Source: Desulfobacterales bacterium
Lineage (GTDB): Bacteria; Desulfobacterota; Desulfobacteria; Desulfobacterales; JAUCGF01
Direction: 5' to 3'
Assembly (NCBI GenBank): GCA_029940345.1
Contig: JAOZRC010000335.1
Coordinates: 1-6,280 of the forward strand
Length of the DNA: 6,280 nt
Shown here: in pieces, positions 903 through 6,123 of the stretch
Numbering within the stretch: the stretch's first letter is position 1
Layout of the letters: each line of letters starts with the position of its first letter
The notes under the pieces: generated by a model
Databases searched by the model: none
The model's input: the letters and a program-made list of their open reading frames with translations, nothing else
Told to the model about the DNA's origin: nothing
Position numbers and translations under genes: made by a program

Positions 903-2558
903 TTGACTGAAGAAATGAATAATTCCGTATCAACATGCCCGAAGGGAGAGGCGTTTCCTTTGCCCCAAGATGCGGAATACGACGCCGAGTTTCAACGCCT
1001 GGAAAAATTAGTCGCTGCCCAACGTGCCATGAACCGCGAAATTGTGGTGGTCATGGGCGTCGGCTTTGTCGGAGCGGTGATGGCAGGCGTTGTGGCTGAC
1101 GCGACCGATCCCGATTCCGGCGAACCGTATTATTACGTGATTGGCATGCAGCGCCCATCGGTGCGCTCATTTTGGAAAATTCCCTATCTGAACCGTGGCA
1201 TTGCGCCCGTGGAAGCCGAAGACCCGGAAGTGGCCCCGCTTATCGAACGTTGCGTGAAGGAGAAAGAAAGTCTGACAGCAACCTTTACTTATGATGCCCT
1301 GACGTTGGCGGATGTTGTTGTGGTGGATGTTCAATGCGACTACCACAAAGAAACGTTGGGGGATGTTAAAAACGGTCATGCTGATATTGCGGCACTGGAA
1401 GACAGCTTAAAAGTGATCGCTGAAAAAATTAGGCCTGATTGTTTGGTGTTGATAGAAACCACGGTTCCGCCGGGAACAACGGAATATGTGGCCTATCCTA
1501 CGATGAAAAAAGCGTTTAAGCGGAGAGGCTTGGAAAACGCCGAACCGCTGTTGGCGCATTCTTACGAACGGGTCATGCCGGGCCGCAATTATGTTGCGTC
1601 CGTACGCGATTTTTGGCGCGTATGCAGCGGAATTAATGATATGGCCCGGGAACGAGTCACTGATTTTCTTTCAAAGGTTATCAATGTTGATAAATTTCCG
1701 CTCACCGTGCTGGATCAACCCATTGAGAGTGAGACATGCAAGATTGTGGAAAATTCCTACCGAGCCACGATCCTGGCTTTCCTGGATGAATGGAGCCGGT
1801 TTGCCGAACGCAATCGGGTGGATTTGCTTAAGGTTATCAAAGCCATTAAAGTGCGTCCGACCCATTCTAATATTATTTTCCCCGGCCCTGGCATCGGTGG
1901 GTATTGTCTTCCCAAAGATGGCGGACTGGGTGTATGGGCCTACAACACGCTGATGGGGTTTGATGATGACATTTTCAAAATCACCCCTTCGGCCATCGAC
2001 ATTAACGATACGCGTTCTTTACATGTGACCGAACTTGTGCGTGATGCGCTTCGGAATATGGGTAAAATTGTGGCGGCGTCTAAAACAGCACTCTTAGGCG
2101 TATCCTACCGTGAAGATGTTGGCGACACCCGCTATAGCGGTTCCGAACTGATTGTTCGGAAATTGACTGAAATGGGCGGCGAGGTGGTTATGCATGACCC
2201 GTATGTCAAACATTGGTGGGAGCTTGAAAAGCAGGATGTCTATCCATCACCGGGCCGCTCCTGGGCACGTTTTTTCCGTAACCAGGAGGGTCTCGCTAAA
2301 ACCCGTATGCAGGCTGAGTTGAGCGACGCACTTGAAAGTGTGGATGCGGTTGTTATCGCCGTTCGGCATGATGATTACCTGAATCTTGCGCCTGATGACG
2401 TTGTGCGCATGGTCGGAAATCCCTGTGCTGTGATTGATTGCTTCGGCATTTTGGATGATGATTCCATACGGCGCTATTTCGAACTCGGATGCGAAGTAAA
2501 GGGATTGGGACGAGGTCATATTCAACGAATCAAAGAAATGGTAAGAAGTAAAAAATAG
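903..2558 (+). CDS. UDP-sugar 6-dehydrogenase family (UDP-glucose/UDP-ManNAc dehydrogenase-like)
   Basis: The family oxidises the C6 hydroxyl of a nucleotide sugar to a carboxylate with two NAD+ in the cytoplasm, supplying uronic-acid sugars for capsule, O-antigen or exopolysaccharide. Visible landmarks are the Rossmann NAD motif GVGFVG (52-57), ETTVPPGTT (185-193), the central-domain segment ETCKIVENSYRA (277-288) with the expected Lys280 and Asn284, the catalytic-Cys motif GPGIGGYCLPKD (328-339, Cys335), and the C-terminal domain beginning LLGVSYREDVGDTRYSGSE (about 397-415). At 551 residues it is longer than the usual 420-450, mostly because of about 45 extra residues before the Rossmann strand. 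The substrate cannot be fixed from sequence; the UDP-ManNAc (WecC-like) side is possible. It starts at TTG behind a strong ribosome site and ends with TAG 15 nt before the DUF1573 gene, so the two are probably co-transcribed. Confidence 0.93.
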   Translation: MTEEMNNSVSTCPKGEAFPLPQDAEYDAEFQRLEKLVAAQRAMNREIVVVMGVGFVGAVMAGVVADATDPDSGEPYYYVIGMQRPSVRSFWKIPYLNRGIAPVEAEDPEVAPLIERCVKEKESLTATFTYDALTLADVVVVDVQCDYHKETLGDVKNGHADIAALEDSLKVIAEKIRPDCLVLIETTVPPGTTEYVAYPTMKKAFKRRGLENAEPLLAHSYERVMPGRNYVASVRDFWRVCSGINDMARERVTDFLSKVINVDKFPLTVLDQPIESETCKIVENSYRATILAFLDEWSRFAERNRVDLLKVIKAIKVRPTHSNIIFPGPGIGGYCLPKDGGLGVWAYNTLMGFDDDIFKITPSAIDINDTRSLHVTELVRDALRNMGKIVAASKTALLGVSYREDVGDTRYSGSELIVRKLTEMGGEVVMHDPYVKHWWELEKQDVYPSPGRSWARFFRNQEGLAKTRMQAELSDALESVDAVVIAVRHDDYLNLAPDDVVRMVGNPCAVIDCFGILDDDSIRRYFELGCEVKGLGRGHIQRIKEMVRSKK

Positions 2559-2565
2559 AAAGGAG
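2559..2565 (+). promoter_or_regulatory. Ribosome binding site of the DUF1573 selenoprotein gene
   Basis: AAAGGAG directly follows the dehydrogenase TAG and is 8 nt from the ATG at 2574. It shows that the DUF1573 gene starts independently, although both genes share reading phase across the TAG. Confidence 0.8.
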
Positions 2566-2573
2566 TTTTAATT

Positions 2574-3731
2574 ATGTATGGAAAACATTTTATTATTACA
2601 CTGATGCTTGGCATCGCATTTTGTTTGGGTACAGCTGTCGAAGCAACTGAAAAGCCCGCCGCTGCAAACACGGAAGCTGCTGACCAGACGCAGCCGAAGG
2701 TTTCTGCGACGCCAACCGAAAACCCAAAGGTTCCCTTCCCAACTGTGTCGGCGTCACCAACAGAAAACGTTGATGACACTGCTCCGGTGGCGTTCGTCCC
2801 CCAAAAACGCTTTTCCTTCCCATCAACAATGGATGGAGCGAAAGTGCTTCATGATTTTATGATTCAGAATAAAGGGGATGCGCCTCTGAAAATCACCAAG
2901 GTAAAAACCGGCTGAGGGTGTACGGCTGTTTCGTATACGAAACAAATCCCTCCCGGTGGCGAGGGAAAAATCAGTATTAGCGTAAACACAAGAGGTTATG
3001 GCGGAAGAACTCTCCGAAAACCGATCACCGTTTACACCAATGACAAAAAGAACTCTAAAATTAAACTGGAAGTATCTGGGGCGGTTGAAAAATTCGTCAC
3101 AATTCAACCCAAATATGTCAGATTGCGCGGATTGATCGGCATGGCGCCTGTAAGCACCGTCAAAATTATCCCCGTAGCCAAGTATCCTTTTAAAATTTTA
3201 GAAGTGCGTGCACAAAAAGGCAAGGATATTCGCTTTGAACTTAAACCGTTAAACGATCAGGAGCAGGCCGGTTATGAACTGATTGTCGAAAATTTGAAAA
3301 AAACCAAAGGGCGATATTCAGATACGATTATCATTAAAACTGATAGCAAAGTAAAACCGGAACTTAAAATTCATGTGTATGGTGATATTCTCGATAAGCC
3401 TCGTGAAAAGAAAAAACCCGATCTGAAAAAGGCGCCGCGATCTCCTTTGACGCAGCCAGGCGTCATAATAACACCTAAAGAAAAACCCAAGCAGGCAATG
3501 CCGACAACGGTGACGCCTCCGGCCAAAGGAGCTTCGGACACGGCTGTGCCCGTGAAAACAGCAACGCCGTCACCAAAGGATAAAGATGCGGCTACGGATT
3601 CGGTAAAAGCGAAGACACCGGAAACAGAGGCCAAGCCGACCACGGATCCGTCCACAGGACCTTCGGGCACGGCTGAAACCGAAAAAACAGCAACGCCATC
3701 ACCAAAAGATAAAGCTGCGGCCAAAGAGTAG
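2574..3731 (+). CDS. Exported DUF1573 protein, predicted selenoprotein (in-frame TGA read as Sec114)
   Basis: Read as one 385-residue frame with a single internal TGA at 2913-2915 and a TAG stop. Order: signal peptide 1-24 (hydrophobic core about 6-19, likely cut after Val-Glu-Ala24; Phe before Cys17 argues against a lipobox); Pro/Thr/Ala-rich linker 25-75 with a repeated unit (VSATPTENPKV 43-53, VSASPTENVDD 58-68); DUF1573 domain about 76-171; a second beta-rich domain about 174-273; and a Lys/Pro/Thr/Ala tail 274-385. The DUF1573 part shows HDFMIQNKGDAPLKITKVKT, then TGA-G-C-T, then PPGGEGKISISVNTRGYGG and ITVYTND. In relatives the TGA position is the first Cys of a Cys-Gly-Cys-Thr motif, so this would be Sec-Gly-Cys-Thr. 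After TGA the frame stays open for 271 codons, the domain resumes without a gap, and a SECIS-like stem-loop follows. The downstream part has no ribosome site for its own start. Function is unknown; a periplasmic redox or metal role for the Sec-Gly-Cys pair is inference. Alternatives: a recent Cys-to-stop mutation or a base error. Confidence 0.85.
2913..2952 (+). promoter_or_regulatory. Candidate bacterial SECIS element (UGA plus downstream stem-loop)
   Basis: The UGA is 2913-2915. Outer stem: GAGGG 2914-2918 with CCCTC 2948-2952. Inner stem: TGTTTCG 2927-2933 with CGAAACA 2938-2944, 7 bp, closing a UAUA loop; its centre GTTTCGTATACGAAAC (2928-2943) is a perfect palindrome. If the top G-C pair opens, the loop is GUAUAC and starts with G-U, as bacterial SECIS loops usually do. 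Eighteen nt lie between UGA and the UAUA loop, the same spacing I count in E. coli fdhF. An alternative fold pairs 2918-2924 with 2932-2938 around GCUGUUU, but its loop is only 9 nt from UGA. Role: binds SelB-GTP-Sec-tRNA so that UGA is decoded as Sec. Inferred from position and shape; no folding was computed. Confidence 0.7.
3527..3722 (+). repeat. Diverged direct repeat encoding the low-complexity tail
   Basis: Segments 3527-3593 and 3656-3722 are similar direct repeats exactly 129 nt (43 codons) apart, both in frame. They encode matching peptides containing the shared string KTATPSPKDK, followed by DAAT in one copy and AAAK in the other. Conserved codons with scattered substitutions indicate an old in-frame duplication in a spacer-like, Lys/Pro/Thr-rich C-terminus. 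Confidence 0.75.
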
Positions 3732-3768
3732 TACTGCAACCCGGAAGTTCGTCCCTCGGTTTGTAGTG

Positions 3769-3808
3769 GCGCCGTAAGGCGTTGCTTTTCCGACGCCCTT
3801 ACGGGCGC
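3769..3808 (+). repeat. GC-rich imperfect palindrome, REP-like
   Basis: GCGCCGTAAGGCGT (3769-3782) pairs with ACGCCCTTACGGGCGC (3793-3808): 14 bp with two one-base bulges (3796 and 3803) around the 10-nt loop TGCTTTTCCG. Its outline (GC-rich stem, bulges, extragenic, just after a stop codon) fits REP elements of environmental proteobacteria. The following bases are not T-rich, which argues against an ordinary Rho-independent terminator, though it could stabilise the mRNA 3' end. Confidence 0.6.
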
Positions 3809-3872
3809 TGTCATCGCTTTGGAATAAATCTGGAATCCCGGGGGTTGCACTAGTAGAAAGGTATGATTGGCA

Positions 3873-3901
3873 GGGTGTGTTGAGCAACCGCCAACACACC
3901 C
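3873..3901 (+). repeat. Perfect 10-bp hairpin upstream of the HAD gene
   Basis: GGGTGTGTTG (3873-3882) and CAACACACCC (3892-3901) are perfect inverted arms around AGCAACCGC. The pattern GGGTG-GTT...AAC-CACCC resembles dispersed palindromic repeats I recall from many environmental bacterial genomes; that resemblance is from memory. It ends 30 nt before the HAD start and lacks a T-run. Confidence 0.6.
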
Positions 3902-3931
3902 CGTCATCGTGATGGGTTAAGAATAATAAAC

Positions 3932-4546
3932 ATGCAAAACATTAAAGTTGTCGCGTTTGATTGTGATGGCGTGATGTTTGACACTGCAGAGGTCAACAAA
4001 GCGTATTATAATTCTCTTTTAGGCCGGTTTGGTCGGCCCTTGATGACCGAGTCGCAGTTCAACTTTGTTCACATGCATACCGTGGATGAATCCGTGGCGT
4101 ATCTGTTTGATGAGCAGGGGCTTGAAGAGGTGCATGCCTTTCGCAAATCCATGGATTACCAACCATTTTTAAAATATATGCGAATAGAGCCGTATCTAAA
4201 ACCGCTGCTTAGGCGGCTTCGACCTCGCTATAAAACCGCCATTGCCACCAATCGCACGGATACGATGGATTTTGTTCTGACTGCCTACGATCTGACCCCA
4301 CTCTTTGATCTCGTCATTACCGCCAGGGATGTCAGCAATCCCAAACCCCATCCAGAGCCGCTCAATAAAATTTCAGCGCATTTTAATTGCGCCCCTGACG
4401 ATATGATTTATATCGGCGATTCAGAACTGGACCAAATCGCCGCTCAGGCGGCCGGCGTTCGTTTTATTGCATACAATAATCGATCCCTTCAGGCGGATTA
4501 TCATATTACGGTATTGGATGAGGTTGAAACGATTTTGGCACTATAG
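3932..4546 (+). CDS. HAD-superfamily hydrolase, phosphoglycolate phosphatase-like
   Basis: A 204-residue cytoplasmic phosphatase of HAD subfamily I, with all four family motifs: motif I DCDGVMFD (10-17; nucleophile Asp10, acid/base Asp12), motif II Thr106 in AIATNRT, motif III Lys138 in NPKPHPEP, and motif IV GDSELD (162-167; Asp163 and Asp167 for Mg2+). A helical cap of roughly 60-80 residues follows motif I, as in phosphoglycolate and beta-phosphoglucomutase-like enzymes. Length is slightly below the usual 215-230. Substrate cannot be told from sequence. The ATG at 3932 has no good Shine-Dalgarno (TTAAGAATAATAAAC precedes it), and a stop just upstream excludes an earlier start. It follows the selenoprotein gene by 200 nt and ends 32 nt from the end of the convergent ATPase gene. 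Confidence 0.92.
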   Translation: MQNIKVVAFDCDGVMFDTAEVNKAYYNSLLGRFGRPLMTESQFNFVHMHTVDESVAYLFDEQGLEEVHAFRKSMDYQPFLKYMRIEPYLKPLLRRLRPRYKTAIATNRTDTMDFVLTAYDLTPLFDLVITARDVSNPKPHPEPLNKISAHFNCAPDDMIYIGDSELDQIAAQAAGVRFIAYNNRSLQADYHITVLDEVETILAL

Positions 4547-4578
4547 CTAAATGCCTGGGCCATCCTTCATTCTCTGCT

Positions 4579-6123
4579 TCACACTTTCTCCCATTCATAA
4601 GCGGTGATATTTCTTTCCTCTTTGGAAAACTCGATGCCTATCTGATAGATATCTTTAACATCCGAATATTTTTGATAATATTTTCTGTCCTTGATCTGCT
4701 GCAAAGCCGAATTATTATCTTTTACCAACTCGGTCACCTTGAACTCGAAAATATAGATGACGCCCTCAAATTTCAGCGTCATATCTATTTTGCCATGGTT
4801 GGTGGTGTCTTCAGGTATGACGTCGAGTCCGAGAGAGGCAAAATAGCTGTAGAAAATCGAAGCGTAGTAGCCTTCGTAATTGGCGATACTGTTTTTTCTG
4901 TACCAATCGTGAGGGATAGATGCGAATAAAGCGATAAAAATATCTTTGAAATTATCAGGCTCGCCTTTTTGCAGCGCGCGATAGATTGAAATTTTGTTTT
5001 TGTTTTTTTTGGCGATGTCATACACCAGTTCCGTAAGAATGTAATCGGTAAGCGCTTTTTTTACTTCGAGATTGGGGTATTTCAGCGTGTGTATGATTTC
5101 CGCGCCCAATTGCATCGTTTCGCGAATCGTCAGATAGCCGGCCTGAAACAAAAGTGTTTCCGCTTTTATATTTTCAATATCAAAACTGCCGATAAGCTCT
5201 TCACCCGCCTCAATTTGCTCAATCTCAGGGATAAAATATCTGTTGTTCCGCAAAAGTTTTATTAAAAAAGATGGCGTTCCGGTTTCAAACCAGTAATTTT
5301 TAAACATTTTTGATGGAGAGTCCAAGAAAAGAAGGATATCAAATGGATTGTAAACCCTTTCCCCGAGCCATGCATAGCCGTTATACCATTTTTTGATTTC
5401 ATCAAGGTCGCAATCCGCCAAATATTCATGAAATTCTCTTTCCAAATCATCCTGGGTGTATCCGCAGATGACCCCATATCTTTCATCGGTTGTGATATCT
5501 TGCAAATTGTTCAAACCACTGAAAATTGAAACTTTGCTGAATTTGGACACGCCGGTTAGAAAAACAAATTTAAGGTATTCATCACAGTCTTTGATGACGG
5601 AATATAGGTTTTTTAATCCCTCTCGCATTTCAACAGCGACTTCCGTATCAGTGATATTATCTAATATCGGTTTGTCGTATTCATCTATCAGTATCACCGC
5701 TTTTTTATTAAATTTTTTGTAGATTTTTAAGACGAGTTCATAAAATTTATCTGAAATATTGCTGAACTGAAATTCGATGCCGAATTCATCCGCAGCAAGC
5801 CAAAGCTGATTATTGATCTTTTCATCAAGTGAAGGCCTGTCCTGTATCACGCCTCCGGTAAAGCTGATATTGATCACCGGATAGGATTGCTCCCAATCGT
5901 ACTTGTCATAAATATACAGACCTTTAAAAAGCGCTTTATTGCCTTTGAAAATATTTTTTAGGGTGTCTATAAAAAGGCTTTTACCGAATCTTCTTGGACG
6001 CGAGAGAAAATAGTATTCTCCGTTTTGAATTAATTTCAAAGCAATATCGGTTTTGTCGACATAGATAAAGTCGCCACTTCTTATTTTGCTGAATGTTTGT
6101 ATGCCTATGGGTAGTTTTTTCAT
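4579..6123 (-). CDS. AAA-ATPase-like / PD-(D/E)XK nuclease-domain protein (DUF1703 type)
   Basis: A 514-residue protein of the AAA-ATPase_like plus PDDEXK_9 type (PF09820/PF08011, by recognition). It opens with the family signature PIGIQTFSKIRSGDFIYVDK (5-24). Walker A-like is SRPRRFGKS (41-49), Walker B VILIDEYDKPI (143-153), and a sensor-like strand FVFLTGVSKFS (187-197). The C-terminus carries a PD-(D/E)XK pattern: GKIDM (Asp447), a strand, then EFK (Glu460, Lys462). Domain and catalytic residues look intact and the length is normal for the family. Its biological role is unsettled; members occur in many scattered copies in gut and sediment bacteria, with a defence or mobile-element role suspected. 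The gene is AT-richer than its neighbours, suggesting separate acquisition. The start is supported by AAGGGG (minus strand, 6136-6131), 7 nt upstream of ATG. It is convergent with the HAD gene, with no clear terminator between them. Confidence 0.92.
   Translation of the reverse strand: MKKLPIGIQTFSKIRSGDFIYVDKTDIALKLIQNGEYYFLSRPRRFGKSLFIDTLKNIFKGNKALFKGLYIYDKYDWEQSYPVINISFTGGVIQDRPSLDEKINNQLWLAADEFGIEFQFSNISDKFYELVLKIYKKFNKKAVILIDEYDKPILDNITDTEVAVEMREGLKNLYSVIKDCDEYLKFVFLTGVSKFSKVSIFSGLNNLQDITTDERYGVICGYTQDDLEREFHEYLADCDLDEIKKWYNGYAWLGERVYNPFDILLFLDSPSKMFKNYWFETGTPSFLIKLLRNNRYFIPEIEQIEAGEELIGSFDIENIKAETLLFQAGYLTIRETMQLGAEIIHTLKYPNLEVKKALTDYILTELVYDIAKKNKNKISIYRALQKGEPDNFKDIFIALFASIPHDWYRKNSIANYEGYYASIFYSYFASLGLDVIPEDTTNHGKIDMTLKFEGVIYIFEFKVTELVKDNNSALQQIKDRKYYQKYSDVKDIYQIGIEFSKEERNITAYEWEKV

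Follow-up and report, generated by a model that had tools for sequence, protein, structure and literature searches.

Layout of the locus

The window, the whole stretch of 6,280 nucleotides analyzed here, is contig 272 of a draft genome (G000; 6.05 Mb, 93% complete). On its plus strand, positions 2574 to 3731 form a single frame of 385 codons, and the sole interruption is a TGA at 2913 to 2915 (codon 114). The frame runs from the ATG at 2574 through this TGA and 271 open codons to the TAG at 3729 to 3731. The TGA is followed by GGG and TGT, giving the motif U-G-C-T, and sits at the first Cys position of the C-G-C-T motif of DUF1573. Standard ORF calling returned two pieces, one at 2574 to 2915 (113 amino acids) and one, cut at its N terminus, at 3123 to 3731 (202 amino acids). 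The original prediction had anticipated this split and had read the two open stretches as one protein; both statements were confirmed. The features of the locus, with their basis, are as follows.

903 to 2558, plus strand: upstream gene for a nucleotide-sugar dehydrogenase (UDPG_MGDP_dh) (Pfam, locus comparison)
2561 to 2565, plus strand: AGGAG, ribosome-binding-site-like, 8 nt 5' of the ATG and directly past the TAG (2556 to 2558) of the upstream gene (seen in the sequence)
2574 to 3731, plus strand, stop codon included: predicted OS_HP2/DUF1573 selenoprotein gene, 385 residues with U114 (frame, PF07610, NF041425)
2574 to 2645, plus strand: signal-peptide-like N-terminal segment (by eye; helix at residues 5 to 17 of the structure model)
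2802 to 3086, plus strand: DUF1573 domain, residues 77 to 171, a PapD/ASH/HYDIN-like beta sandwich in the model (Pfam, structure model)
2913 to 2915, plus strand: in-frame UGA, predicted Sec codon 114 of U-G-C-T (frame, codon in relatives)
2914 to 2952, plus strand: SECIS-like hairpin (inverted repeat, pairing in relatives)
3090 to 3392, plus strand: second beta-sandwich domain, residues about 173 to 273, without Cys (sequence, structure model)
3393 to 3731, plus strand: Lys/Pro/Ala/Thr-rich C-terminal tail, of low model confidence and less conserved (model, dN/dS against strain HSG9)
3932 to 4546, plus strand: HAD-family hydrolase, 200 nt past the selenoprotein stop, a neighbor common to most of the Sec loci read (Pfam, locus comparison)

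The putative signal peptide, read by eye, has a basic start, a hydrophobic core, and an A-x-A-like end. Low-complexity linkers at 2646 to 2783 and 3393 to 3731 contain the recurring words S-A-T/S-P-T-E-N and K-T-A-T-P-S-P-K-D-K, and TRF found no tandem repeat within the selenoprotein gene. Among the five window proteins searched with Pfam, that at 202 to 723 gave no match. The minus strand encodes an AAA-ATPase_like and PDDEXK_9 protein (4579 to 6123), which had no homologue in the neighborhoods compared. An inverted repeat at 831 to 882 (19-nt arms, 89% complementary, 14 nt apart) lies just 5' of the sugar dehydrogenase gene.

Assignment to the OS_HP2/DUF1573 family

The joined protein matched PF07610 (DUF1573) over residues 77 to 171 with 76.3 bits (gathering cutoff, 26.1) and all 98 positions (1 to 98) of the NCBIfam model NF041425, "OS_HP2 family (seleno)protein," with 151.5 bits (cutoff, 100). 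In the Global Ocean Sampling selenoproteome of 2008, OS_HP2 is given as pfam07610 with the motif UxC, represented by 2 Sec and 354 Cys sequences (PMC2398784). A DUF1573 domain-containing protein with UGC is also listed in the selenoprotein tables of a 2022 review (PMC9312934), which cites Zhang and Gladyshev 2007 on the deltaproteobacterial symbiont of Olavius algarvensis, and of a 2026 review (PMC13188914). The passages concerned in the two reviews give no function for the protein, and PMC8318568 makes no mention of DUF1573 or OS_HP. The novelty implied by the original prediction, which knew of no described DUF1573 selenoprotein, was thus mistaken. The window gene is a further member of an already described family.

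The window protein shares with NF041425 the full-length domain match and a Sec codon at the same motif, and it differs by a long, charged C-terminal tail; the model name gives no function. It has pfam07610 and UxC in common with the OS_HP2 entry of PMC2398784, which differs in consisting of marine metagenome sequences. The likeness to the Olavius algarvensis symbiont protein (PF07610, UGC, deltaproteobacterial lineage) is one of table description and not of sequence. DUF1573 proteins of the Cys type, such as P0054 of Desulfobacterium sp. N47, carry C-G-C-T at the same place; they differ from the window protein by Cys in place of Sec and by a formate dehydrogenase neighbor, seen in 6 of the 16 Cys loci.

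Selenocysteine machinery in the source genome

All of selA, selB, selC, and selD were found in the source genome. The tRNA-Sec (selC) scored 73.9 bits (Rfam cutoff, 47), SelA 595 bits, and SelD 375.8 bits, and selB was recognized by its wing domain (60 bits) within a frame of 640 codons. The SelD frame itself contains one in-frame TGA, as does the best match to FdhA (905.7 bits). Since in-frame TGA codons are present in SelD, FdhA, and a second formate-dehydrogenase-like frame (L043, L137, and L139), the source genome likely has several selenoproteins. SelB was found in 333 of the 389 sampled genomes of the order, and its co-occurrence with the gene therefore does not discriminate. At least 10 draft genomes with a TGA copy show no SelB among the matches listed (G075, G079, G100, G115, G117, G123, G132, G135, G145, and G148).

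Codon at the Sec position in relatives

We compared the codon at the Sec position in 73 distinct DNA places, the window included. Both kinds of homologue sought by the original prediction were present, with TGA at 59 places and a Cys codon at 13 (12 TGC and 1 TGT). The one remaining place, with AAC, was an off-register match, and TGG occurred at none of the 73. The loci were drawn from the best-scoring matches listed and from long contigs, with a deliberate search for Cys loci, so that the proportions of Sec and Cys are not rates. The places with TGA belong to many families. Together with the PF07610 match, the Cys codons at 13 of 73 places confirmed that the TGA lies at a conserved Cys of the DUF1573 motif. 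The second motif Cys (C116) was invariant in 48 aligned sequences, chosen from 67 for spanning the motif.

NF041425 matched in 343 of the 389 sampled genomes of the order, with 320 exceeding the cutoff; among the best-scoring matches listed, 12 had no stop and the remainder had one TGA. Across 89 sampled genomes of the phylum, including three from the order, the model matched in 40 and exceeded its cutoff in 8. Five of these 8 lie outside the order, and all five have TGA. A tree of 90 rows (73 Sec and 17 Cys), in which some long branches leave details unsure, requires at least six changes of the Sec/Cys label, three of which are forced by well-supported branches. The tree thus needs at least three Sec/Cys changes. 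One genome (G067, contig 37) carries a TGA copy and a stop-free copy in tandem, at 14970 to 15254 and 15924 to 16208.

Selection beyond the TGA

The closest relative, from Desulfococcaceae bacterium HSG9 (L009), has the same TGA. Between it and the window, residues 115 to 273, past the TGA, showed a dN of 0.053 and a dS of 0.590 (dN/dS, 0.09), and residues 70 to 113, before the TGA, showed a dN of 0.088 and a dS of 0.720 (dN/dS, 0.12). The C-terminal tail (3393 to 3731) is fast-evolving (dN, 0.22; dS, 0.72). As judged from this sequence comparison, purifying selection acts on the part after the TGA, and the frame shows none of the decay past the stop that would be expected of a broken gene. 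A possible link of HSG9 to multicellular magnetotactic bacteria, for which our literature search returned no paper, was not used here.

A hairpin at the UGA

A SECIS-like hairpin can be drawn at the UGA. Its lower stem pairs GAGGG (2914 to 2918) with CCCTC (2948 to 2952), and its upper stem of six pairs, which begins eleven nucleotides past the UGA, joins TGTTTC (2927 to 2932) to GAAACA (2939 to 2944), with an extra pair possible between G2933 and C2938. The structure was named by hand from the inverted repeat of the window and was examined over 48 nt from the codon in 48 nonredundant TGA loci and 10 Cys loci, out of the 59 and 13 places above. The motif search feeding this set gave 66 places (55 TGA and 11 Cys), missing some, and 58 loci were left after near-copies (>90% identity) and loci with short flanks had been dropped.

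In the TGA loci, 85.0% of 528 cells were paired, against a shuffle mean of 82.8, and 20 cells were changed on both sides, against a shuffle mean of 7.5; the covariation score was 0.163, against 0.110 in the shuffles. None of 500 shuffles was as high in any of these three measures. When the hairpin was slid along the same loci, 40.3 to 59.3% of cells were paired. Two of the five pair measures in the TGA loci did not exceed the shuffles: 4 pairs had a double change (47 of 500 shuffles as high), and there were 10 further pair types (251 of 500 as high). The 10 Cys loci were 57.3% paired, with no pair measure in excess.

The pair between columns 17 and 30 was UA in 26, CG in 13, and UG in 9 of the 48 TGA loci and was broken in none. 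Of the 44 rows whose codon is AGR or AAR, 11 carry C at column 17, and every one of these carries G at column 30 (Fisher P = 4.1e-6; 0 of 10,000 permutations), and columns 18 and 29 gave a P value of 5.5e-6; these P values include shared ancestry. Column 17 is the second base of a Val/Ala codon, and column 30 is the third base of an Arg/Lys codon, where most changes are synonymous; for this reason the protein sequence alone does not explain the pairing. RNAalifold, run alone on the TGA set, did not return the named hairpin and chose another, weak one (columns 2 to 20). Folding energies differed modestly between TGA and Cys loci (median z, -0.45 versus +0.22; P = 0.0034, uncorrected for kinship).

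Bacterial SECIS elements typically have a G in the first two positions of the apical loop. Such a G was found in 10 of the 48 TGA loci, and in the window only if a loop of 6 nt is assumed; in the same genome, the hairpins folded from FdhA and SelD both carry G in the loop. A search of the window with Rfam, at E values up to 5, gave two sub-threshold snoRNA matches and no SECIS family. Pattern scans of 2400 to 4600 returned 7 promoter-like and 10 terminator-like sites (shuffle means, 3.5 and 3.2); one terminator-like site (2909 to 2928) overlaps the hairpin region, and the scans were not used as evidence. Within the alignments, the predicted hairpin downstream of the UGA is backed by compensatory changes in the TGA loci and not in the Cys loci.

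A predicted exported selenoprotein with a Sec-Gly-Cys site

The machinery genes, the codons of relatives, the selection past the TGA, and the covarying hairpin support the original proposal that Sec replaces the first Cys of the motif. We consider it very probable that 2574 to 3731 encodes one 385-residue predicted exported OS_HP2/DUF1573 selenoprotein and that the hairpin helps the UGA at 2913 to 2915 to be read as Sec. SelB would bind the UGA hairpin and deliver the Sec-tRNA, and the product would be exported, as its N terminus predicts. The locus very likely holds a genuine selenoprotein gene, though not the first of its kind, and it offers an experimental handle on a family present in 343 of the 389 sampled genomes of the order. 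What is new here is the HAD neighbor, the formate dehydrogenase beside Cys relatives, the three or more Sec/Cys changes, and the database entries in which Sec is given as Trp.

The structure model (mean pLDDT, 78.3) has two confident beta sandwiches, at about residues 70 to 275, flanked on one side by an N-terminal helix plus a low-confidence linker and on the other by a low-confidence C-terminal tail. With Cys entered for U114, this residue falls between strands 105 to 112 and 116 to 121; Sec114-Gly-Cys116 would lie in the turn joining two strands of a PapD-like beta sandwich. By fold, the model best matched PapD/HYDIN-like and not thioredoxin-like structures, with 10% and 15% identity between the window protein and the HYDIN/CFA65/VesB-like and PapD/ASH-like beta sandwiches. 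The top Foldseek rows were ciliary central-apparatus chains with an rmsd of at least 9 Å, which we took as a shared fold only. A sequence search of the PDB gave 2qsv (E value, 0.024), a Nif11 protein, and troponins, none of them significant.

The C-x-C tripeptide can act in disulfide exchange. Sec114 and Cys116 would reversibly form a selenenylsulfide bond, and the Sec-Gly-Cys motif would serve as a redox site of the thiol/selenol type in the periplasm, perhaps for a partner protein. The original prediction supposed that such a pair would be an unusually reactive redox or metal-binding site. To our knowledge, no DUF1573 protein has been shown to have redox activity. The protein could instead be a selenoprotein in which Sec-Gly-Cys binds or passes on a soft metal (mercury, copper, or zinc) with no redox switch. 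U-x-C and C-x-C are also spacings of metal sites, and the predicted export and the PapD/HYDIN-like rather than thioredoxin-like fold would suit such a role; Pfam, however, recognized no metal-handling protein among the five window proteins, and we regard metal binding as possible and rather unlikely.

Translation past the UGA and the reading of TGA in databases

UGA always competes with termination, and the hairpin starts at the UGA codon itself. Both points would agree with a main product of 113 residues and a minor, regulated read-through. This product, however, would stop inside the DUF1573 domain, and the residues past the TGA (115 to 273; dN/dS, 0.09) are as constrained as those before it (70 to 113; 0.12), which makes a mainly terminated product improbable.

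At the Sec column, 66 database homologues had W in 24 cases, C in 26, and S in 1, and 15 were unreadable. The entries with Trp include P0005 to P0012 and P0027, and the protein entry with Ser is P0034. Taken at face value, the 24 Trp entries would favor decoding of UGA as tryptophan, by a changed code or near-cognate read-through. Against this, TGG was absent from all 73 distinct DNA places, where the alternative codon was Cys (13 places), and elsewhere in the window TGA does act as a stop codon, at 4579 to 4581, where it ends the minus-strand ORF 4579 to 6123. The W of P0027 looks like a gene-caller reading of TGA, because this entry and the TGA locus L079 share 98.7% identity. Decoding as Trp was rejected as highly improbable, and gene callers appear to have rendered TGA as Trp. 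Some protein-database entries thus have Sec written as Trp, or the protein cut off after it, and searches for the intact family may therefore miss the Sec form. A nonsense mutation or sequencing error in a decaying gene, which a single stop in a contig of a single assembly might suggest, is hardly credible and, short of a shared artifact, is refuted by the relatives, with TGA in 59 of 73 distinct places from many families and, in HSG9, the same TGA with a dN/dS of 0.09 past it.

Gene neighborhood and the HAD phosphatase

Gene neighborhoods were compared in 62 loci with flanks (46 Sec and 16 Cys), from which the off-register matches L072 (AAC) and L128 (ACG) had been removed before counting. 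By tblastn, a homologue of the window HAD hydrolase follows the gene in 40 of the 46 Sec loci and in 3 of the 16 Cys loci; comparison of ORFs gave 35 of 46 Sec loci, and the tblastn figure is preferred. In 25 of the 40 Sec loci with HAD, the estimated HAD start falls -14 to +13 nt from the selenoprotein stop. The three Cys loci with HAD (L057, L058, and L119) all have an estimated gap of -4 nt and therefore look like a Sec/Cys exchange in the same locus. The kept adjacency of the HAD phosphatase suggests joint expression rather than a known joint pathway, and it gives a neighboring gene to consider with the family.

PriA is the upstream neighbor in 27 of the 46 Sec loci and 2 of the 16 Cys loci; in the window and in HSG9, and only in these two of the 62 loci, its place is taken by the nucleotide-sugar dehydrogenase. 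A formate dehydrogenase alpha homologue adjoins the gene in 6 of the 16 Cys loci and in none of the 46 Sec loci. In L055 it was the query itself, and it matched at 58 to 63% in L050, L051, L054, and L056 and at 28% in L053; the neighbors in L050 and L055 were separately named as formate dehydrogenase.

We also considered that the selenoprotein and HAD phosphatase genes form a selenium-gated operon in the order, in which the Sec codon, besides making a periplasmic redox site, would switch a cytoplasmic phosphatase. Because the HAD start lies within -14 to +13 nt of the stop in many Sec loci, HAD translation would be tied to ribosomes getting past the UGA and, if the idea holds, would fall when selenium is short. 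We regard this gating as doubtful. The gap in the window is 200 nt, and gating would therefore be weaker or lost there. An inverted repeat at 3868 to 3906, with 15-nt arms, lies between the selenoprotein and HAD genes and is a possible terminator or attenuator.
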